Source of the DNA: Gemmatimonadaceae bacterium
GTDB taxonomy: Bacteria; Gemmatimonadota; Gemmatimonadetes; Gemmatimonadales; Gemmatimonadaceae
DNA length: 64,000 bases
Assembly: GCA_025934775.1 (NCBI GenBank)
Contig: JAICWO010000011.1
Location: 1 to 64,000, forward strand
Direction of reading: 5' to 3'
The notes under the pieces were generated by a model. The model saw only the letters and a program-made list of their open reading frames with translations. It did no database searches and was not told the DNA's origin. The position numbers were made by a program, and so were the translations under genes. Shown here piece by piece: positions 45,868 through 61,126 of the stretch. The number at the start of each line of letters is the position of its first letter. Position 1 is the stretch's first letter.

Positions 45868-46290
45868 TCAGCGTTTCATCGATGTCACGATCTGAATGAC
45901 GCCGTTCAGGTTTCCGTTGCCGAAGCGCGCCTGCGCCTCGGAGGCCGAGTAGAACTTGAGCTGCATGGCCTGATTCGGCGTGAACTGCTTGAGGACCTCG
46001 AGGCCGCCCGCGTGCTGGGTATCCATGTAGACCTGGATGCTGCTGTCCGATTCGTTGCCGGTGACCGACATGCCGGTGTTGTTGCCGACGGCGCCCTGGG
46101 TGCGGGGGACGAGCCATTCCGGATGCAGCCGCTGCACGACGTCGTAGAGGGTGGAGACGTCCTGCGCGGCTTTGAGCTCGTCAATCGAGATGGTGTTCCG
46201 GTCGCGGCGCGGTGCGCTGGACGCGCTCTTCGCGGCGGGTGCACAGGCGACGGATGCGGCCGCTGTGACGAGTAGGGCGACGCGGCGCAT
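45868..46290 (-). CDS. Small lipoprotein resembling an isolated TonB-receptor plug
   Basis: 140 residues from the ATG at 46290 (MRRVALLV). Signal peptide with lipobox SVAC, Cys ~16. The mature part ends in YSASEAQARFGNGNLNGVIQIVT, closely resembling the last strand of TonB-dependent receptor plug domains (ARYG..ANGVI.I.T). No beta-barrel follows. Outer-membrane or periplasmic location is expected. The gene is divergent from susC with ~540 bp between them. Function unknown; it may engage a receptor or TonB. Confidence 0.72.
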   Translation of the reverse strand: MRRVALLVTAAASVACAPAAKSASSAPRRDRNTISIDELKAAQDVSTLYDVVQRLHPEWLVPRTQGAVGNNTGMSVTGNESDSSIQVYMDTQHAGGLEVLKQFTPNQAMQLKFYSASEAQARFGNGNLNGVIQIVTSMKR

Positions 46291-46431
46291 GGTTGCGGCG
46301 AACATAACGAGGCTCCGTGCGGGGGTGAACGATCGCGGACGATCTAATAGGATGGGACGGGAATTATCGACATCAGCGGGGGTTGGTGAGGGAAATCGCG
46401 CTTAGATCCCTGAATTTCCACAAAATTTCCC

Positions 46432-46499
46432 TTGCAACCCACCGCGCGCAATCCTACGTTGTCGCGCCCAAAACTCCAAGCGTGTGACGACTCGTCACA
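46432..46499 (+). promoter_or_regulatory. Candidate susC promoter with palindromic operator
   Basis: TTGCAA (46432-46437), 17 bp, TACGTT (46455-46460), predicted +1 ~46467. Just downstream is the 17-bp palindrome TGTGACGA-C-TCGTCACA (46483-46499), related to CRP-type sites but with a 7-nt centre between TGTGA and TCACA. It is the only operator-like element in the 540-bp gap before susC. Confidence 0.45.
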
Positions 46500-46656
46500 G
46501 GTATGCGCCGCCATCCAGTCTGGATGTGACGCGTTATCCCGCTGCGGGAGTTCAAGGCACGAACAGCAGGTCAGCGGTCATCCTCAGTTGCCATCTTCAA
46601 TGATTGCTCGGCCCGTGCCGTTTCCGGGTCGGCGCATCATCTCCATTACAGAGCTG

Positions 46657-46691
46657 TACCCGAGCATTCACCACTGGTTGATGCTCGGGTA
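46657..46691 (+). promoter_or_regulatory. Stem-loop in the susC 5' UTR
   Basis: Perfect 11-bp inverted repeat tacccgagcat / atgctcgggta with a 13-nt loop, 137 nt before the susC ATG. No U-tract follows. It could stabilise the mRNA or be a target for a regulator. Nothing else is seen in 46500-46828. Confidence 0.5.
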
Positions 46692-46828
46692 GTGTGCTGC
46701 CATTCCGGCTGGCATCTGGTGCGACGCGGTCGCGCGGAGCCGATGGAAAGGCGGTGGCTGGTCGCGACGCAGCGGTCGCGGTGCAGGTGAACGGCAGCGG
46801 TACCCATTCCTCATCTTCAGAGAGTGAG

Positions 46829-49800
46829 ATGATCAACATGACCCGTGCTCGAGCGATAGCCGGCGCGCTGTTCGGCGTATTGCTTACCGTGCCATTGGCA
46901 CGAGCCCAGGCACAGAGCGCGGTGATCACCGGTAAGGTGAACACCGAGTTCGGCCAACCCCTCGAAGGCGCGAACGTCTACATCACCACGATGAACATCT
47001 CGGTGGGGACGAACGCGCAGGGCCAGTACACGATCACCGTTCCCTCGGCGCGCGTGAGTGGCCAGCAGGTGGTCCTCAGCGTGCGGTCCTTCGGGTTCGT
47101 GCCGCAGACCAAGCCGATCACGATCCGCGCCGGATCGCAGTCGGCCGACTTCTCACTCAAGCAGGACGTCAATCGCCTGCAGGAAGTCGTCGTGACGGGC
47201 GTGTCGGCGGGTACGGAGCAGAAGAAGCTCGCGTTCACCGTGGCGCACGTCGACGACAAGGACATGCCGGTTCCCGGCCAGGATCCGCTGCAGGCGCTCC
47301 AGGGCAAGGTGCCGGGCGCGCAGATCGCGCAGACGAATGGCCGTCCGGGCGCGTCGCTGTCGATTCTGCTCCGCGGACCACAGTCGATCAACGCGCAGGG
47401 CCGCAGCCAGAACCCGCTGTTCATCGTCGACGGTGTCGAGATCAGCGGCGATCTGCCCGATCTCAATCCGCAGGACATCGAGAGCGTCGAGGTCGTGAAG
47501 GGAGCCGCCGCCGCGTCATTGTACGGGTCGCGCGCGGGCAACGGCGTCATTCAGATCACGACGAAGAGTGGTGCCAACGGCGGTGAAGGCATTCACTTCA
47601 GCGCGCGCGCGGAAGCAGGCGCCGGCGACATCGAGCATCAGTATCCGTTCGAGCAGGACCAGTTCCTGACGATGACGCCGGACGGCAAGAACTTCTGCGT
47701 CAAGCAGGGTGGCAACAGCGTCGTCGCGACCTGTCAGATCGCGATCAACTTCGGTCTCGAAGAGCAGCGCGTGAATGAGCTGGGCGGCGTGTTCGCGCTG
47801 CAGCCGGCGAACTTCGAACGCGACGGCGGCATCGCCTCGGCGCCGAACAAGATTCTGCTCCGCGGCCTGTTCGCGAATGAGCTGTGGCCCGTGACGTACA
47901 ACCCGATCTCGCAGGCGACCACGAACGCGCCGAGCCTGAACAGCACGATCGATGCGCAGGGGCACGTGGGCGGGACGACGTTCTTCACGAGCTTCAACAA
48001 CTACAATCAAGACAATCAGATGCGGTTCATGGACGGGTACAAGCGCAATTCGCTCCGCTTGAACCTCGACCAGAATGTGGGCAGCGCGTGGAGCTTCGGT
48101 CTCCGCAGCTACTACGCCGCTTCAGTCGACAACGGCTCGGCCGAAGAAGACGGCGGCAGCCTCTTCTTCCATATCACCCGTTCGCCTGCGGGTGTGAACC
48201 TGCTCGGCCGCGATCCGACGTCGGGCCTCTACTACATCCGGTCCAACCCCCTCCAGCAGGGCGGCCAGAACGACAACCCGGTGTACTGGTCGGCGAACGA
48301 GATCAGCCGCAACAACAACGAGCGGTTCCTCGGCGATTTCACCTCGAAATGGAGCCCGGTATCGTGGGGCAATCTCGAGGCGAACGTCAGCTTCGACCGC
48401 GACGGCGTGACGTACCTGTACGAGCGTGACAAGGGCTTCCGCACGACGGCCGTGTCGAGCTCGACGAACAACGGCCGCATCCAGAATCAGGAAACGCTCA
48501 ACACGTCGTACAACGGCGACCTGACGGGGACCGCGACGCACAACTTCGGCGATCTCGCCTCGCGCTTGACCGGCCGGTACATCTACGAGCAGCAGGACAA
48601 CAACAACTTCAGCGCGGCGGGCGGCCAGCTCGCGGCGCCGGGCCTCGTGACGCTGGGCGCCGTGTCGGACAACACGACGATCGGCATCGGCTCGGGCATG
48701 TCGACGATTCGCTCGATCGGCATGATGAGCGAGCTCAATCTCGAGTACAAGGATCGCTACATCGTCGACGGCTTGGTCCGTCGCGACGGCAGCTCGCTGT
48801 TTGGATCGGCGAACCGCTGGGCCAACTACGGCCGCGCCTCGGCCGCGTGGATCATGTCGGAGGAGCCGTGGTGGTCGTTCGGTGCGATCGACCAGTTCAA
48901 GCTCCGCGCGTCGTACGGCACGGCCGGCGGCCGTCCGCAGTTCTCGGCGCAATACGAGACGTTCTCGATCGGTTCGGGCGGCTCGCTCTCGGCGAACCAG
49001 CTCGGCAACAAGAACCTCCGTCCCGAGACGGTCGGCGAGGCCGAGTACGGCATCGACGCCGAGATCCTCAATCGGTACGGCTTGACGATCGACTACGCGC
49101 AGTCGACCTCGAAGGACCAGATTCTTCCGGTGCCGCCGTCGGTCTCCACGGGCTTCCAGACGCAGTGGCAGAACGCCGGCACGATGCAGAACAAGACGTG
49201 GGAAGCCTCGCTGAACGTTCCCGTGCTGCGTCGGCGGAACGGCAGTTGGTCGATGCGCTTCAACTACGACCACAACCGCGCGTACATCACGCAGCTCAAT
49301 GAGCCGCCGTTCGCGTTCGGCACGGCGGAGCAGGGCGCGGGCAACATGTTCTGGGCCGCACCGGGCGAGCGGTACGGAAACTTCTACGGTCGTGGCTTCG
49401 TGACGAGCTGCAGCCAGTTGCCGGATCCGTTCCGGTCGCAGTGCGGCGGTTCGGGCTCGCAGTTCCAGAAGAACAGCGATGGCTTCATCGTGTGGACCGG
49501 CGGCCATTCGCTCGGCGAAGGCATCACGAGCAACCTCTGGCAGTCGGGTCTCGTGTCGTGCCTGAAGAACGGCGCCGCGGTGTCGACCTGGGGTGTGAAC
49601 ACGTGCACCGCGCAGGGCGGCACCGTCAACGCGCCATGGGGCACGTCGATCAACTGGGGCACGCCGATCGTGCTGCGCGACGCCACTGGCGCGGCGAACA
49701 CGCACGTGCTGCTTGGCAACGCGCTGCCGAGCTACCGGTTGTCGAACACGCAGCAGATCAACTACAAGAAGTTCTTCGCCTACGTGCTCTTCGACGGCAG

Positions 49801-50239
49801 CTTCGGTCGCCGCGTCTTCAACGAAGGCCGTGAGTGGTCGTACGGCGACTTCCAGGTCGCGCAGACGGACCAGGTGAACAAGAGCATCGCGGATGCGAAG
49901 CCGATCGGCTACTACTGGCGCACGGGCCCGCAGGAGAGCTCGGGCATCGGCGGCTTCTACGACGCGCTGAACGCGAACAACAACACCGTGGAAGACGCCA
50001 GCTTCGTGAAGCTGCGCGAGACGAATCTTTCGTACAACATCGGCGCCGTGCGCGGCTCCGGCGACTGGACGATCTCGCTGATCGGCCGGAACCTGAAGAC
50101 CTGGACCAAGTACACGGGCTTCGATCCGGAAGTCGGCTACGGCGGCGGCACCAGCGGCTCGGCGCTGATCAACGCGCTCGACGCCTACACCTTCCCACCG
50201 CTGCGCACGTTCACCGTCGCACTCTCGACGAAATTCTAA
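46829..50239 (+). CDS. SusC/RagA-family TonB-linked outer-membrane protein
   Basis: 1136 residues from the ATG at 46829 (a second ATG at 46838). Signal peptide (PLARAQA), carboxypeptidase-regulatory-like domain (~30-110; VITGKVNTEFGQPLEGANVYI), plug (LQEVVVTGVSAGT through DIESVEVVKGAAAASLYGSRAGNGVIQITTKSG), then a long 22-strand-type barrel ending in an aromatic-Lys-Phe strand (ALSTKF). With the following SusD it forms a pedal-bin nutrient importer; the ligand is unknown (glycan or peptide). Followed 73 bp later by susD. Confidence 0.94.
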   Translation: MINMTRARAIAGALFGVLLTVPLARAQAQSAVITGKVNTEFGQPLEGANVYITTMNISVGTNAQGQYTITVPSARVSGQQVVLSVRSFGFVPQTKPITIRAGSQSADFSLKQDVNRLQEVVVTGVSAGTEQKKLAFTVAHVDDKDMPVPGQDPLQALQGKVPGAQIAQTNGRPGASLSILLRGPQSINAQGRSQNPLFIVDGVEISGDLPDLNPQDIESVEVVKGAAAASLYGSRAGNGVIQITTKSGANGGEGIHFSARAEAGAGDIEHQYPFEQDQFLTMTPDGKNFCVKQGGNSVVATCQIAINFGLEEQRVNELGGVFALQPANFERDGGIASAPNKILLRGLFANELWPVTYNPISQATTNAPSLNSTIDAQGHVGGTTFFTSFNNYNQDNQMRFMDGYKRNSLRLNLDQNVGSAWSFGLRSYYAASVDNGSAEEDGGSLFFHITRSPAGVNLLGRDPTSGLYYIRSNPLQQGGQNDNPVYWSANEISRNNNERFLGDFTSKWSPVSWGNLEANVSFDRDGVTYLYERDKGFRTTAVSSSTNNGRIQNQETLNTSYNGDLTGTATHNFGDLASRLTGRYIYEQQDNNNFSAAGGQLAAPGLVTLGAVSDNTTIGIGSGMSTIRSIGMMSELNLEYKDRYIVDGLVRRDGSSLFGSANRWANYGRASAAWIMSEEPWWSFGAIDQFKLRASYGTAGGRPQFSAQYETFSIGSGGSLSANQLGNKNLRPETVGEAEYGIDAEILNRYGLTIDYAQSTSKDQILPVPPSVSTGFQTQWQNAGTMQNKTWEASLNVPVLRRRNGSWSMRFNYDHNRAYITQLNEPPFAFGTAEQGAGNMFWAAPGERYGNFYGRGFVTSCSQLPDPFRSQCGGSGSQFQKNSDGFIVWTGGHSLGEGITSNLWQSGLVSCLKNGAAVSTWGVNTCTAQGGTVNAPWGTSINWGTPIVLRDATGAANTHVLLGNALPSYRLSNTQQINYKKFFAYVLFDGSFGRRVFNEGREWSYGDFQVAQTDQVNKSIADAKPIGYYWRTGPQESSGIGGFYDALNANNNTVEDASFVKLRETNLSYNIGAVRGSGDWTISLIGRNLKTWTKYTGFDPEVGYGGGTSGSALINALDAYTFPPLRTFTVALSTKF

Positions 50240-50312
50240 CCCACCACGCGGCGTCGGGCTCGCCTTCGGGCGAGTCCGATGCCGGTGCCTGTCTCATCGT
50301 AGAGGATATCAA

Positions 50313-51980
50313 ATGAGAAAGTTGGCAACCGGACTCGCGTGGATCGCCGCGTTGACGTCGGTCGCGTGTAAGGACACTCTGAACGCGCCCGACAACAACG
50401 CGCCGGATATCGCGCGCTCCTACTCCACCCCGGCGGTGCTCGACCAGCTCATCGCCACGGGCTATGCACAGATTCACCAGGGCGTCTTCAACTCGTCGAC
50501 GGCGCTCGATCCGCAGATGCAGGTGCTGTCATTCGAGAACTACGCCACGGTGGCGAATTTCGGCATGAACGGGCGCGAGGCGATGCCGCGCAGCCAGATC
50601 GACAACAGCCGAAACAACTTCACCTTCGCCGAAGACTTCCGCGATTTCAGCACGATGTCGCAGCAGTCGCGGTACTCGTCGAACTACGTACAGAGCCTCG
50701 ACGCGCTCACGGCCAAGGGCATTCACCTGGGCAGCCCGACGGGAAACTCGAGCGATGCCACGGTGCTGCCGGCGCAGGACCTCCGGGCGCGTTCATTCGC
50801 GTTCTTCGAGAACGGCGTCGCGCTGGGCAACCTGGCGATGGCGTACGATTCGGCGGCGATCGTGACGCCGGCGACGCCGAGCGACGCGGTGCCTCCGCTC
50901 AGCTCGCACGTCGACGTGATGAAGACCGCACTTGCGTCGTTCGACACGGCGATCGCGATCGCGAACGATCCGAAGGCTGCCGCAGGCTTCCCGCTGCCGT
51001 CGAACTACATCAATCTGGCGAGTGGGACGTACGGCAAAGACCAGTACGTGCGACTAATCCGCTCGTACAAGGCTCGGTTCCGCGCGGGCGTCTCGCGCAC
51101 GCCGGCCGAGCGCGCGGCGGTCGATTGGGCCTCGGTGATCGCCGACGCGACGAACGGCATTCAGTCGGATCTCGTGATCCAGATCAACGGCTCGGCGGGT
51201 TGGGGCTTGAACTGGCTCGGCTCACAGATGTTCGCGTCCAATAGCCAGGGCTGGCACGAGATCTCGCCGATGATCTTCGGTATGGCTGATACCTCCGGCG
51301 GTTATGCGTCGTGGATCGGTCAGGCGCTCGGTGCACGCTCGCCGTTCCTGATCAAGACGCCGGATAAGCGGTTCCCGTCCGGCGAGACGCGCGTCGATCA
51401 GCAGAACAACTCGCCGAAGACGTGGATCTACTCGAACTACCCGTACATGCGGAATCGCAGCAGCGCCGACCCGCCGGGCGACGGCTGGGGCTCGTCGTTC
51501 TACGATTTCTGGCGCTTCAAGGGCATCTTCGACAACAACGGCCAGGGGCCGTGGATCGAGATGTCGAAGGTCGAGATCGACATGCTCGCGGCCGAGGGCT
51601 ACATCCGAAAGGGTGACTACGCGAGCGCCGCGGCGCTGATCAACAAATCGCGCACGGCCGCCGGCCTCAAGCCGGTGACCGCGACGGCGGACGGTGGCAA
51701 CACCGGCAGCGCGTGCGTCCCGCTGGTGCCGAACGGCACGGGCGGTGTGAAGTGCGGCGACATCATGGAAGCCATGAAGTGGGAGAAGCGGATGGAGACG
51801 GCCTACACCGGCTACGGGCAGTGGTACTTCGATGCTCGCGGCTGGGGCGACCTGCCGGAGGGCACGGCGCTCGAGTGGCCGGTGCCGTACCAGGAGATGG
51901 ATGCGCGCGCGCATCCGTTCTACAACCTCGGCGGCGTCGGCGGATCGTCGGCCGCCGCCAAGGGCACGTACGGATTCTAA
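50313..51980 (+). CDS. SusD/RagB-family outer-membrane lipoprotein
   Basis: 555 residues. Signal peptide and lipobox TSVAC (Cys19). TPR-like helices early (RSFAFFENGVALGNLAMAYD), an Asn/Ser/Thr-rich middle and the C-terminal region EAMKWEKRMETAYTGYGQWYFDARGWGDLPEGTALEWPVPYQEM typical of RagB/SusD. It caps the SusC barrel on the cell surface and binds the substrate. Same strand and spacing as other susCD pairs. No polysaccharide-degrading enzyme is encoded nearby, so a glycan target is not supported. Confidence 0.93.
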   Translation: MRKLATGLAWIAALTSVACKDTLNAPDNNAPDIARSYSTPAVLDQLIATGYAQIHQGVFNSSTALDPQMQVLSFENYATVANFGMNGREAMPRSQIDNSRNNFTFAEDFRDFSTMSQQSRYSSNYVQSLDALTAKGIHLGSPTGNSSDATVLPAQDLRARSFAFFENGVALGNLAMAYDSAAIVTPATPSDAVPPLSSHVDVMKTALASFDTAIAIANDPKAAAGFPLPSNYINLASGTYGKDQYVRLIRSYKARFRAGVSRTPAERAAVDWASVIADATNGIQSDLVIQINGSAGWGLNWLGSQMFASNSQGWHEISPMIFGMADTSGGYASWIGQALGARSPFLIKTPDKRFPSGETRVDQQNNSPKTWIYSNYPYMRNRSSADPPGDGWGSSFYDFWRFKGIFDNNGQGPWIEMSKVEIDMLAAEGYIRKGDYASAAALINKSRTAAGLKPVTATADGGNTGSACVPLVPNGTGGVKCGDIMEAMKWEKRMETAYTGYGQWYFDARGWGDLPEGTALEWPVPYQEMDARAHPFYNLGGVGGSSAAAKGTYGF

Positions 51981-51988
51981 GGATTTGA

Positions 51989-52516
51989 ATGAGCGTTTCT
52001 GAACTACCGTCGCGGGACCGGGGCGAGCGATCGTTCCGGTTTCGCCGGCGGAGAGCCGTGGGGCTGGTGCTGGGGGCGGTGCTGGTGGTCAACGTCGGAT
52101 GCTACACGTACTCGCCGTTGATCGATACGCGGCCGCTGCCGGGCCAGCAGGTGTCGTTGGAGTTGTCCGATCAGGGACGCGCCGCGCTCGGCGGCCAGTT
52201 GGGACCGGGCGTCCTGCGGGTCGAAGGAACGCTGGAATCAGTGCAGAACGATCAGTACACCGTGAGTGTGAGCCGGGTCGCCACGATCAGCGGCGGCACG
52301 GCAAACTGGGGAGGAGAGCACGTGACCATTCCCGTGAACGATGTCGCGAGTGCCGGACTGCGCACGCTGTCGCGCGGTCGCACGGCGCTGCTGGCAGGCG
52401 CCATCGCGGTGGGAGTGGGCGCGTTCGTCGCGACCCGGGGCCTGTTTGGCGGCGGTTTTCAGCCGGCGACCGATACGGGCAGAACTCCGGTGGGTAGTGA
52501 TCGTATCCCGTATTGA
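51989..52516 (+). CDS. Predicted lipoprotein or membrane protein of the susCD operon
   Basis: 175 residues. A basic N-terminus (RSFRFRRRRAVG) leads into a hydrophobic segment ending in VVNVGCYTY, a possible lipobox with Cys38. A second hydrophobic stretch (TALLAGAIAVGVGAFVATRGLFGGGF) lies near the C-terminus. No recognised family. It begins 8 bp after susD and is probably co-transcribed. The start may be further in, at a shorter signal sequence, but the ATG chosen is the only one upstream of the hydrophobic segment. Confidence 0.7.
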   Translation: MSVSELPSRDRGERSFRFRRRRAVGLVLGAVLVVNVGCYTYSPLIDTRPLPGQQVSLELSDQGRAALGGQLGPGVLRVEGTLESVQNDQYTVSVSRVATISGGTANWGGEHVTIPVNDVASAGLRTLSRGRTALLAGAIAVGVGAFVATRGLFGGGFQPATDTGRTPVGSDRIPY

Positions 52517-52566
52517 AACGTCTTCATCTCGCTTCTTGTATGAACCTCTCGTCGGAGTCGATCAGA

Positions 52567-53409
52567 ATGAGATTGCAGCGAATCGCGCTGCTGAGCGCCG
52601 TCGGACTCGCGTTGACGGCCTGCTCCAGCGACACAGGTCCCACGGTGACGGATCTCCCGGCGGCGGCGTCCGTCCGGTATATCGAAGCCGTTCCGGACAC
52701 GAACAAGACGGATCTCAAGTTCGTCGATCAGATCAAGGGATCGCCGTACTTCGGCCAACTCGCGTTCCGCGACATTTCGGCCTACGAGCCGGTCGCGCCC
52801 GGCGCACGCCACATTCGCATCTTCGCGGTCGATCCAGCGATCGACGCCAATACCTCGAATGAGGCGAACATCAACGTCGTCTCGCAGGTCTTCGTCGACA
52901 CGACGATCACCTTCGAGGCGAACAAGTTCTACACGATCATCCACGTCGGCTACGCGCGAACCGGCTCGTCGCCGAAGCAGCATCTGGTCGTGTTGACCGA
53001 TGATCAATCGGCCGTTCCCTCGTCGTCGCAGATCGCGGTGCGCGTGATCAACACCGCGCCGACGCTTGCGAGCGCCGACGTCTACAACGGCACGTCCGCC
53101 TCGGGTGCCGCGCTCTTCACGGGCGTGGCGTTCGGCACGAGCTCGGCGTACAAGCTCCTCAGCACGGGCACGGTGACGTTCACCGCCACCGCGTCGGGTT
53201 CGTCGACGGTCGCGGCAACGGCGGCCGCGCCGGCCGGAGCACCGCCGGCTACGGTCTCGCAGAGCGCGCTGGGCGGCTACTCGATTGGCGGCAGCATGTT
53301 GACGGCCTTCATTTTCCCGGCTTCCGTGAAGGGCAGCCTCGCGGCGTCCAACACGGCCACGTCGGTGAAGTGGATGCAGGACAACTTCCCGCAGACGCCG
53401 GGCGCCTGA
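52567..53409 (+). CDS. DUF4397 lipoprotein
   Basis: 280 residues from the ATG at 52567 (MRLQRIALLSAVGLALTACSSDTG), with a textbook lipobox LTAC. SVRYIEAVPDTNKTDLKFVDQ and the repeated Ig-like segment AVRVINTAPTLASADVYNGT identify DUF4397, a beta-sandwich family common in surface lipoproteins. Probably on the outer membrane, as last gene of the susCD cluster. A TTG-initiated extension overlapping the upstream gene is not needed. Closed by a strong terminator. Confidence 0.85.
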   Translation: MRLQRIALLSAVGLALTACSSDTGPTVTDLPAAASVRYIEAVPDTNKTDLKFVDQIKGSPYFGQLAFRDISAYEPVAPGARHIRIFAVDPAIDANTSNEANINVVSQVFVDTTITFEANKFYTIIHVGYARTGSSPKQHLVVLTDDQSAVPSSSQIAVRVINTAPTLASADVYNGTSASGAALFTGVAFGTSSAYKLLSTGTVTFTATASGSSTVAATAAAPAGAPPATVSQSALGGYSIGGSMLTAFIFPASVKGSLAASNTATSVKWMQDNFPQTPGA

Positions 53410-53430
53410 GCCTCGCCTCAGCGGTATGAG

Positions 53431-53468
53431 AAAAAGGGCGTGCGCTTCGGCGCACGCCCTTTTTTTTT
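53431..53468. terminator. Bidirectional terminator between the DUF4397 gene and the convergent plug gene
   Basis: gggcgtgcgc-ttcg-gcgcacgccc stem (53436-53459) flanked by A5 on the left and an 8-9 base T-run on the right, so it works in both directions. Confidence 0.95.
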
Positions 53469-53483
53469 GGTATTAGCGAACGC

Positions 53484-54266
53484 TCAATTCGGCGTGCCGG
53501 GCACCCGGCTCCAGATCACGATCGTTCCGCACGTGTACCGCGATGACGTCTGCGCGAACTCGAGCGGCGTCGACGCCGGGCCCGAGTAAAGCTCGATTCC
53601 CTCGACGTCCGTCGCCGGGAAATCGTCGATCTCGGCATTCGTCACGCGCCGGCCATCGATCCAGTACTGCGGCGGGCAATCGATCGGCTTCGAGTTGCTG
53701 AGATCGAACCGGATGCCCTGCCGCGCCGTCCCCGCGCGGACCACCCGAATTCCCGGGAGATCGCGCAACACGTCGCTCAACGTATTGGTGTGGCGTGCTT
53801 CGATGTCCTCGCGGGTGATGAACATGCCATAGCCTTTCGAGCGGCGCCGGTAAAAGCCCTCGAGGTCCTTGTAGCGCCGCTCGAGCGAGGCGTCCGTGCG
53901 CATTGCCTCGAGGAGCGGCGCGCTCTGCGGCATGGTCACGTTCACGCTGTCGACCTCCGCGGGGTGAAGCGTGAAATCGAACTGCTGCGGCTCGAACCCG
54001 AAGCGCTTGATCTTCACCGTGATCGGGGTCGGAGCGAGCGAGCGAAGCGCGAACCACCCGCTGTCGTTCGTTCGCCCGGACGCGACGACGCGGAGGAGTT
54101 CGTGTGCCGAGGCGATCGGCGCCACGACGTCGATCTGCGCGTTGGCGACCGGAGTGCCCGACGAGTCGCGAATCCACCCGACGATCGCCGCATTGTGCTG
54201 CTGCGCGCCCGCCACGGCCGCGGCGAGCGGGATGACAGCCATCGAGCGCTTGATCAGGCGGAGCAT
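53484..54266 (-). CDS. Carboxypeptidase-regulatory-like plus plug protein without a beta-barrel
   Basis: 260 residues. Signal peptide (~1-21), Ig-like carboxypeptidase-regulatory domain (AAIVGWIRDSSGTPVANAQIDV, ~27-115) and a plug domain (ITREDIEARHTNTLSDVLRDLPGIRVVRAGTARQGIRF through VEGIELYSGPA). It ends (TIVIWSRVPGTPN) where the first barrel strand of a TonB-dependent receptor would begin. It is a natural end rather than a truncation: no barrel remnant is seen downstream in any frame, and a terminator follows. Function unknown, perhaps an accessory to a TonB receptor. Confidence 0.83.
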   Translation of the reverse strand: MLRLIKRSMAVIPLAAAVAGAQQHNAAIVGWIRDSSGTPVANAQIDVVAPIASAHELLRVVASGRTNDSGWFALRSLAPTPITVKIKRFGFEPQQFDFTLHPAEVDSVNVTMPQSAPLLEAMRTDASLERRYKDLEGFYRRRSKGYGMFITREDIEARHTNTLSDVLRDLPGIRVVRAGTARQGIRFDLSNSKPIDCPPQYWIDGRRVTNAEIDDFPATDVEGIELYSGPASTPLEFAQTSSRYTCGTIVIWSRVPGTPN

Positions 54267-59583: not shown

Positions 59584-60204
59584 ATGCGCATGTCCGTGAC
59601 TTGGTACAGCGAGTCGGGTCCGATCATGCTGCTGCTGGCCGTGATCGGCCTGTTGGGACTGATCCTCATCGTCGAGCGGCTGTACGTGATCGTGGTTCGC
59701 TCGAAGAACAACGCTCGCCATTACATCGAGCGAACCATTCAGCTCGTGCGCAGCGGCAAGGTCGAAGAAGCGATCAAGCTGTGTGCGAGCTCGCCCGCGG
59801 CGATTCCGGACATCGGGTTGGTCATCCTGCGCAGCCGCGCGCCGGAAGAGCGCGATCTGCAAACGGTCGCCGATGCGGCCGCGCTGTTCATCCTCCCAAA
59901 GCTCACGCGGCGACTTTCGTATTTTCGTACGCTCTCCGCGGTCGCGATCATGCTCGGCCTGCTCGGCGCCTTCGGCGTCGTTCGCAAGGCGCTCACGACC
60001 AATACCGGCGCGGCGGCGCTCCCCCCGCTCGCGTATGCGTTGGATCCGCTCGCGGTCGGAGTCGCGATCGCGATCGTACTGACGCTCGCGCATGGCTATC
60101 TCGCCAGCCAGGCGGAGTCGATCACGAGCGACATCGGAGAATTTTCGGCGCGCCTGGTCAACGCGCTCTCCAATCGGCCGGACGTCCGCCTCGGGCATCG
60201 TTGA
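59584..60204 (+). CDS. MotA/TolQ/ExbB-family membrane protein
   Basis: 206 residues. Three hydrophobic segments: MLLLAVIGLLGLILIVERLYVIV (~14-36), YFRTLSAVAIMLGLLGAFGVV (~111-131) and LDPLAVGVAIAIVLTLAHGYL, in the topology of proton-channel subunits TolQ/ExbB. The core segment GLLGAFGVV replaces the common GLLGTVxG. No ExbD/TolR or TolR-like gene follows, which is unusual because these proteins work as pairs. It may be paired in trans with a partner elsewhere. It is divergent from the DsbA-like gene. Confidence 0.83.
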   Translation: MRMSVTWYSESGPIMLLLAVIGLLGLILIVERLYVIVVRSKNNARHYIERTIQLVRSGKVEEAIKLCASSPAAIPDIGLVILRSRAPEERDLQTVADAAALFILPKLTRRLSYFRTLSAVAIMLGLLGAFGVVRKALTTNTGAAALPPLAYALDPLAVGVAIAIVLTLAHGYLASQAESITSDIGEFSARLVNALSNRPDVRLGHR

Positions 60205-60268: not shown

Positions 60269-61126
60269 ATGGCCGATTCCCTCTCCCCGCTCCCGCACAC
60301 CACCGTGTCGTCCCGCGTCCTCGCGCTGCTCTCCGCGGCGCTGGTCATCGTTGCGGCGCCGCTTCACGCGCAGGGACTGCAGATCCCCGCGCCCGTCGGC
60401 TACGTCAATGATTTCGCGCACGTGATTCCGGCGGCGAACGCCGGCACGATCGGGCGCATCATCGATGACGTGCGCGAGAAATCTGGGGGCGAGATCGTCG
60501 TCGTGACGCTGCCCGATCTGGGCGGCCGGCCGATCGAAGAGGTCGGGCTCAACATCGGCCGACAGTGGAAGGTCGGCAAGAATGCGAAGCCCGGCGATCC
60601 GGCGCGCAACACGGGCGTCATCATCCTCGTCGTGCCGAAGGAGACGAGCGCGGATGGGCGCGGCCACATTCGCATCGAGACCGGCTACGGCGCGGAAGGG
60701 TTCATCACCGATGCGACAACGGGTGAGATCCGCGACGAAGTCGTTCCGTATTTCGCGCGTCGCGACTATGGCGACGGGATCGAGCTCGCGACGCTGCGCG
60801 TCGCGCAGCGGTTTGCGGGCGAATTCAATTTCCAGATCGATACGAGCTTTCAGGCGCCGCCGCCGCCGCAACCGCAGCGCGGTGGAAACAGCGGCGGCGG
60901 AGGCATTCCGCCGTTCGTGTGGCTCGTGCTCCTGTTCGTGATTCTCTCCCTGCTCGGGGGCCGGCGTCGCGGCGGCTGTCTGCCGATCTTCATTCCATTC
61001 GGGGGGGGAGGCGGGTGGGGCGGCGGAGGTTTCGGTGGCGGCGGCGGGTTTGGTGGCGGTGGCGGGTTTGGCGGCTTCGGTGGTGGCGGAGGTTTCGGCG
61101 GCGGCGGCTCCAGCGGATCTTGGTGA
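60269..61126 (+). CDS. TPM-domain (YgcG-like) secreted membrane protein with Gly-rich tail
   Basis: 285 residues. Signal peptide (APLHAQ), TPM_phosphatase domain (~40-180: PVGYVNDFAHVIPAA, GGEIVVVTLPDLGGRPIEEVGLNIGRQWKVGK, and GVIILVVPKE), one transmembrane helix (PPFVWLVLLFVILSLLGG) and a strongly Gly-rich C-terminus ending GGSSGSW. YgcG-type proteins commonly neighbour lemA, as here, and their function is poorly understood. The Gly-rich repeats are encoded by near-identical GGNGGC codons. Confidence 0.88.
   Translation: MADSLSPLPHTTVSSRVLALLSAALVIVAAPLHAQGLQIPAPVGYVNDFAHVIPAANAGTIGRIIDDVREKSGGEIVVVTLPDLGGRPIEEVGLNIGRQWKVGKNAKPGDPARNTGVIILVVPKETSADGRGHIRIETGYGAEGFITDATTGEIRDEVVPYFARRDYGDGIELATLRVAQRFAGEFNFQIDTSFQAPPPPQPQRGGNSGGGGIPPFVWLVLLFVILSLLGGRRRGGCLPIFIPFGGGGGWGGGGFGGGGGFGGGGGFGGFGGGGGFGGGGSSGSW

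Follow-up and report, generated by a model that had tools for sequence, protein, structure and literature searches.

Detached plugs of TonB-dependent receptors beside a susC–susD block in Gemmatimonadota, and their possible action in trans on Ton-driven uptake

A 64,000-nucleotide stretch of a Gemmatimonadaceae genome (assembly GCA_025934775.1, contig JAICWO010000011.1, positions 1 to 64,000; hereafter the window) carries, on either side of a block of genes that begins with a susC–susD pair, two small genes whose products are homologous to the plug of TonB-dependent receptors and lack the receptor barrel. The first, termed type A after the family of which it is a member, encodes 260 amino acids at 53484..54266 and the second, termed type B in the same manner, 145 amino acids at 45868..46305. 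Both open reading frames (ORFs) of the original prediction were found to be real, and both genes lie on the minus strand; the type B gene, which had been given 140 residues and an end at 46290, extends to 46305, position 46290 being merely the next in-frame ATG. We tentatively favour the view that both genes encode functional plugs which work in trans, most likely by contacting Ton or SusCD, and which tune or assist uptake, although on the sequence evidence we hold this to be somewhat short of probable.

The type A protein of the window starts with a signal peptide, as judged by eye, followed by a SusC-like N-terminal domain (residues 28–112, 53931..54185; CarboxypepD_reg, PF13620, E 9.3e-13), a linker and a plug (residues 150–233, 53568..53819; PF07715, E 1.3e-10), both Pfam matches being above cut-off. 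The ORF closes a few residues beyond the final plug strand, and the domain order is that of SusC minus the barrel. A six-frame search of the genome with a SusC model gave a single match in this part of the contig, namely susC itself (46925–50236), and thus no frame-shifted barrel was detected beside either plug gene. A barrel adjoining the plug genes in another frame was therefore rejected, as both ORFs end at the plug and are followed by a DUF4397 gene and a glycosyltransferase/tetratricopeptide repeat (TPR)-like gene, respectively. The original description of the 260-residue protein as a regulatory domain plus plug without a barrel was in this way confirmed. No match to the STN domain of FecA-type signalling receptors (PF07660) was found by Pfam up to E 1 in type A proteins, type B proteins or the window SusC.

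An AlphaFold model of type A built from four sequences was usable, with a mean predicted local distance difference test score (pLDDT) of 76 and a predicted template modelling score (pTM) of 0.70. Most of what Foldseek retrieved with this model were transthyretin-like domains, the N-terminal extension (NTE) of the SusC structure 9hfj among them; a CirA receptor model ranked 14th, matching over 125 columns with a root-mean-square deviation of 2.7 Å (aligned residues unlisted). VIA-align gave a Z-score of 10.8 with the same SusC NTE; the matches were taken up by the N-terminal domain and tell little about the plug. The type A family profile also matched SusC structures in the PDB.

The type B protein of the window had no Pfam or NCBIfam match and has no NTE domain. 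Its plug homology was recognized by hhalign, in which a profile of 35 type B relatives matched SusC plugs with a probability of 97.3% (E 2.3e-11); the probability was 96.9% for type A plugs, and SusC barrel segments and SusD reached no more than 3.8%. The SusC plug profile had been built from 12 of 28 SusC proteins, the others having failed the motif rule. The plug-like core comprises residues 36–142 (45880..46200), which upholds the original statement that this protein ends like a receptor plug. A five-sequence type B profile likewise matched plugs within ORFs of more than 1000 amino acids in the 61 genomes of the family, and one paralog of the own genome (at C3) showed a weak Pfam Plug match (E 0.0023, below cut-off). 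The AlphaFold model of type B, made from a single sequence, was unusable (pLDDT 46) and was left out of the fold search. Type B is probably a lipoprotein, as originally proposed: a strict lipobox pattern fitted 20 of the 35 relatives, with eight short gene calls skipped, but the lipobox of the window protein itself (ASVAC) is suboptimal.

Type A proteins carry two conserved cysteines, the first as a rule immediately ahead of the V.DG strand, the second at the last strand of the plug (CG...W). In the window protein these are Cys197 (codon at 53676..53678, identified from alignments and counts) and Cys246 (53529..53531), the latter being invariant in A3 and A2 (there numbered 226, with a shortened first row). 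A CG...W cysteine together with a cysteine within the preceding 130 residues was present in 52 of 53 type A proteins by pattern and in the 53rd by eye, whereas none of the 23 SusC proteins with a recognizable VDG motif (28 examined) had a cysteine in the plug stretch. Among genes labelled A in the fetched regions the pair was found in 41 of 46; two of the five exceptions resemble ordinary receptors, a third does not end in a plug, a fourth is truncated at the region boundary and the fifth lacks CG...W. By their length, the label-A genes in L143 and L197 are apparently full receptors. The conserved cysteines probably form a disulfide that replaces the support of the barrel in folding. Such a staple would make sense because the isolated plug of FepA is reported, in the accessible part of a review, to be unfolded, yet to bind ferric enterobactin at about 5 µM (PMC11658791).

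A candidate Ton-box-like strand following the NTE (L..[VIMTS].[VITM]) was found in 42 of 53 type A proteins by a loose pattern that takes in some other strands. SusC proteins have LQEVVVTG and similar sequences at this position, and in Bt1763 the accessible text describes an NTE of PF13715 with the Ton box DEVVVTG after it (PMC7782687). The plug surface seems to be changed in both families, since a lysine ahead of the conserved glycine was present in 18 of the 19 motif-bearing SusC plugs (28 examined), and K or R was rare at the matching place, the motif-bearing proteins with either residue there numbering 6 of 39 in type A (46 examined) and 4 of 36 in type B (44 examined, the window protein being counted twice). 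This lysine presumably faces the barrel.

Neither family is confined to the window. The own genome, of 4.88 Mb in 47 contigs, encodes at least 24 type A (the window's included) and 5 type B proteins as compared with 11 SusC proteins above cut-off, so that detached plugs outnumber SusC receptors. Pfam Plug was matched at E 0.1 or better in 14 of the 24 type A proteins, 10 of them above cut-off, and the remaining ones were assigned by the profile or by likeness to the window protein together with shared motifs; the paralogs are diverged, with 22–39% identity to the window protein. The type A profile matched in all 61 genomes drawn across the phylum, ordinary receptors being among these matches. 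The best matches from 29 other genomes, which are not a random sample, were all barrel-less on reading (29/29), and the named relatives retrieved for type A were metagenome-assembled genomes of Gemmatimonadota. For type B, 46 of the 61 family genomes had a match at E 1e-11 or better among the matches listed; at E 0.001 the figure rose to 60 of 61, again among the matches listed, the weak ones being largely receptor plugs. Scoring per genome used the best ~48 candidates for the type A and the best ~66 for the type B profile. As weaker matches include ordinary receptors, the claim made here for type A covers just the genomes whose proteins were read, and that for type B the 46 genomes with a match at E 1e-11 or better.

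When plasmids were searched by tblastn, matches were obtained in Gemmatirosa and, in other phyla, to annotated TonB-dependent receptors and to one unannotated Persicobacter plasmid sequence, which proved to be an ordinary receptor with a barrel. A protein of Gemmatirosa kalamazoonensis KBS708 matched the type A profile at E 2.5e-60, but Pfam recorded no Plug in it. Within an open-access library, as distinct from subscription papers and preprints, no description of such families of detached plugs was found. Some variants were seen in passing: a tandem of three type B genes (L136), pairs of type B genes (convergent in L135, and in L158), and three type A-profile proteins (L084:5778-7265, L017:757-2148 and L238:5239-6657) with two or three CarboxypepD_reg stretches ahead of the plug region, in none of which Pfam Plug gave a match.

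Several type A relatives are linked to TonB by fusion. Among the type A proteins read in the 29 other genomes, seven (L041, L042, L048, L049, L054, L056 and L059) continue beyond the plug with an extension of 126–140 residues, and all six tails that were scanned by Pfam contained TonB_C above cut-off, L042 being judged by its likeness to L041. Type B is linked to TonB by position, as at C3 of the own genome a tonB gene is followed by an adjacent type B gene on one strand, beside susC. In L097:6325-7590 tonB is directly followed by type B, and a susCD pair lies divergently upstream.

The neighbourhoods of both families were compared with those of control positions. For type B, 40 regions were taken from the better matches on contigs of sufficient length, several of them from one genome; the regions are thus not randomly sampled, nor are related genomes independent of one another. 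The 40 controls came from the same genomes, 32 of them from the same contig at a distance of 50 kb. Genes were called by a simple codon-usage caller which missed some type B genes as well as start codons, and the positions of the focal genes were therefore taken from the profile search. SusC/SusD genes were located within 1 kb of type B in 11 of 40 regions and in none of the 40 controls (Fisher p 4e-4), within 2.5 kb in 12 of 40 versus 0 of 40, and within 8 kb in 14 of 40 versus 3 of 40 (p 0.005). The 11 close regions represent eight genera; nine show the order susC-susD-B on one strand with type B just downstream of susD, and the other two, which are the same locus in relatives, are divergent like the window. 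For type A, SusC/SusD genes were present within 2.5 kb in 5 of 20 regions versus 0 of 40 controls (p 0.003). The own-genome neighbourhoods listed, which leave out the regions of five type A genes (L023-L027), include the orders susC-susD-B-susC-susD-A (C24) and susC-susD-susC-susD-A (C6). A type A gene convergent with a susC–susD pair, as in the window, was also noted in three other genomes (L210, L211 and L220).

In the window, the block between the two plug genes is transcribed from the plus strand and consists of susC (46829..50239, start codon approximate; TIGR04056 at 457.9 bits, with its own plug and barrel, and CarbopepD_reg_2), a susD-like lipoprotein gene (50313..51980; PF07980, weak with E 0.0041 and below cut-off, but positioned after susC), a gene for a small protein without family but with a homologue in L001 (51989..52516), and, as the final gene, that of a DUF4397 protein (52513..53409; PF14344, E 1.9e-20), which ends 74 bp past the type A stop on the opposite strand. 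Type B is transcribed away from susC (divergently) and type A towards the operon (convergently), so the two genes, both being on the minus strand, do not both face the susC cluster from opposite sides as had been stated. Upstream, the order is atpA, atpG, atpD and atpC (named by eye from translations), the glycosyltransferase/TPR-like gene on the minus strand and then type B, of which it is the downstream neighbour on the same strand. Beyond type A come a gene whose product belongs to no known family, one recognized by eye as a response regulator, and further genes. An ExbB/MotA-family proton-channel protein is encoded farther on at 59584-60204 (PF01618, E 2.3e-7); the gene called at 61035 was without a Pfam match, and no further search for exbD was made.

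The flanking arrangement postulated in the original prediction is conserved, as the congener G081 (of which L139 and L001 are apparently the same record) has the order A, DUF4397, small gene, susD, susC and B beside atpC. The block and both plugs are 34–59% identical between the window and G081, as against 87–89% for the flanking atpC, response regulator and neighbour of the latter, atpC and the response regulator by themselves giving 88–89%; other flanking genes also drop to 58%, and rapid change is thus no peculiarity of the block. G103 keeps A, DUF4397, susD and susC up to near the contig end, and G070, which belongs to another genus, has B, susC, susD and DUF4397. The congener G066 has the order atpC, B, A, an unclassified gene and the response regulator, the susC/susD/small gene/DUF4397 block being absent. 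Here B and A (L134:7989-9223) lie on one strand 11 bp apart with intact reading frames, and their identities to the window proteins (52% and 56%) resemble those of the two plugs of G081 (56% and 59%). If G070 is taken as the outgroup, it is simpler to assume that G066 has lost the block; a fault in the assembly is possible. A dependence of type A and type B on the susCD pair between them was rejected, as G066 retains both plugs without the block.

From these data we infer, conditionally, that the detached plugs fold in isolation, where they are located, that they bind TonB and that they have a regulatory effect, the likeliest role being that of tuning or assisting TonB. Both types would be plugs separated from a TonB-dependent receptor that act in the periplasm. 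Type A, as a soluble copy of the N-terminal half of SusC with NTE, Ton-box-like strand and plug, might engage the C-terminal domains of TonB via the Ton-box-like strand or the NTE, and type B, as a shortened and probably lipid-tethered plug, might dock near its SusC from the periplasmic side. The outcome of both contacts would be that Ton-driven uptake is tuned or assisted.

A number of observations weigh against this reading. The Ton-box-like strand of the window type A (LEAMRTDA) is poor, and no Ton box was visible on inspection of type B. Both window proteins lack a TonB C-terminal domain by Pfam, the TonB_C matches of the own genome all fall outside its type A genes, and the seven tailed type A proteins, though from six genera, all belong to the taxonomic family of the window. 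No SusC/SusD gene lies within 1 kb in 29 of the 40 type B regions, the association of type A with them is not significant at 1 kb (2/20, p 0.11) or at 8 kb (5/20 versus 3/40, p 0.10), and 21 of the 24 own-genome type A genes are, by position, more than 5 kb from any SusC above cut-off. The absence of the block in G066 is a further such point. Accordingly, of the suggestion that these proteins compete with or assist TonB-dependent receptors, a general involvement retains circumstantial support from the susC-susD-B operons, the single type B gene behind tonB in the own genome and the TonB_C-fused type A relatives, but a strict tie to this operon does not agree with the retention of the plugs in G066 and the distance of most type A genes from SusC.

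Four other explanations were considered. The plugs could be periplasmic ligand carriers that bind the imported substrate by themselves and hand it on once it has passed through SusC, which we regard as unlikely but deserving of attention. The binding of ferric enterobactin by the isolated FepA plug in spite of its unfolded state, as given in the accessible part of the review (PMC11658791), would be compatible with such a function, as would the operon position of type B behind susD and the many diverged type A paralogs, which suit many ligands; on the other hand, a carrier does not need a TonB_C fusion, and the distance of the 21 type A genes from SusC genes does not fit. Also unlikely, in our estimate, is the reuse of the plug as a general interaction or structural fold of the envelope that takes no part in Ton-driven uptake. 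Such a use could account for the location of most own type A genes away from SusC and beside unrelated genes in the neighbourhoods listed, the extra CarboxypepD_reg repeats in several type A proteins and the persistence of the plugs in G066, but neither the TonB_C fusions nor the enrichment near SusC/SusD would be expected from it.

That the plugs enter or cap in trans barrels that have no plug of their own or have lost it appears quite improbable: both families are plug homologs and type B genes often accompany those of SusC, but the window SusC possesses its own plug, and the lysine of SusC plugs is mostly gone in type A and type B. Decaying receptors that have lost their barrel, although truncated receptors do occur, as in the four Anabaena genes that encode a plug but just part of a barrel, of which all2620 is expressed (PMC2771747, from the accessible text), were rejected as highly improbable on account of the open frames of the 29 best-matching type A proteins from other genomes, which end at the plug or in one kind of tail, the type A-specific cysteines and the conserved synteny.

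Returning to plugs that act in trans on Ton-driven uptake, a more far-reaching and doubtful, if conceivable, extension is that Gemmatimonadota use a whole layer of detached plugs as trans-acting Ton parts, in which soluble, disulfide-stapled type A proteins, some with a TonB C-terminal domain of their own, and lipid-tethered type B proteins made with some susCD pairs would together arbitrate which receptor is served by TonB. To our knowledge, the sharing of a limited TonB pool among many outer-membrane receptors is an open question. The detached plugs offer a testable function for roughly two dozen own-genome genes that are unexplained by domain searches alone, and soluble plugs would be natural tools with which the stability of plugs and their binding of TonB and of ligands could be measured in membrane-free assays.

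Among known systems, the SusC/RagA receptors (TIGR04056) share with the detached plugs the NTE-like domain, the plug homology and, in many type A proteins by the loose pattern, a candidate Ton-box-like strand. Types A and B differ from them in having no barrel, type A in addition by its cysteine pair and type B by the lack of an NTE and by its probable lipidation. SusE/F or the surface glycan-binding proteins (SGBPs) are the accessory lipoproteins of Sus operons; type B resembles them as a small lipoprotein-like gene behind susD (in 9 of 40 regions; divergent in the window) but is a plug homolog. As regards TonB (PF03544), the TonB_C domain is fused C-terminally to type A in relatives while the window proteins are without it, and these fusions apparently start, as judged by eye, with a signal sequence of the cleavable kind and not with an anchor. 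The truncated all2620-like genes of Anabaena likewise encode a plug without a full barrel; according to the accessible text there are four of them, two of which, including all2620, have the missing barrel part adjacent, whereas here the families are multi-copy and no barrel part was found. The isolated plug of FepA, finally, is also barrel-less, as a laboratory construct described in the accessible part of the review cited above, and type A differs from it in the cysteine pair, a possible stabilizer of a plug that has left its barrel.

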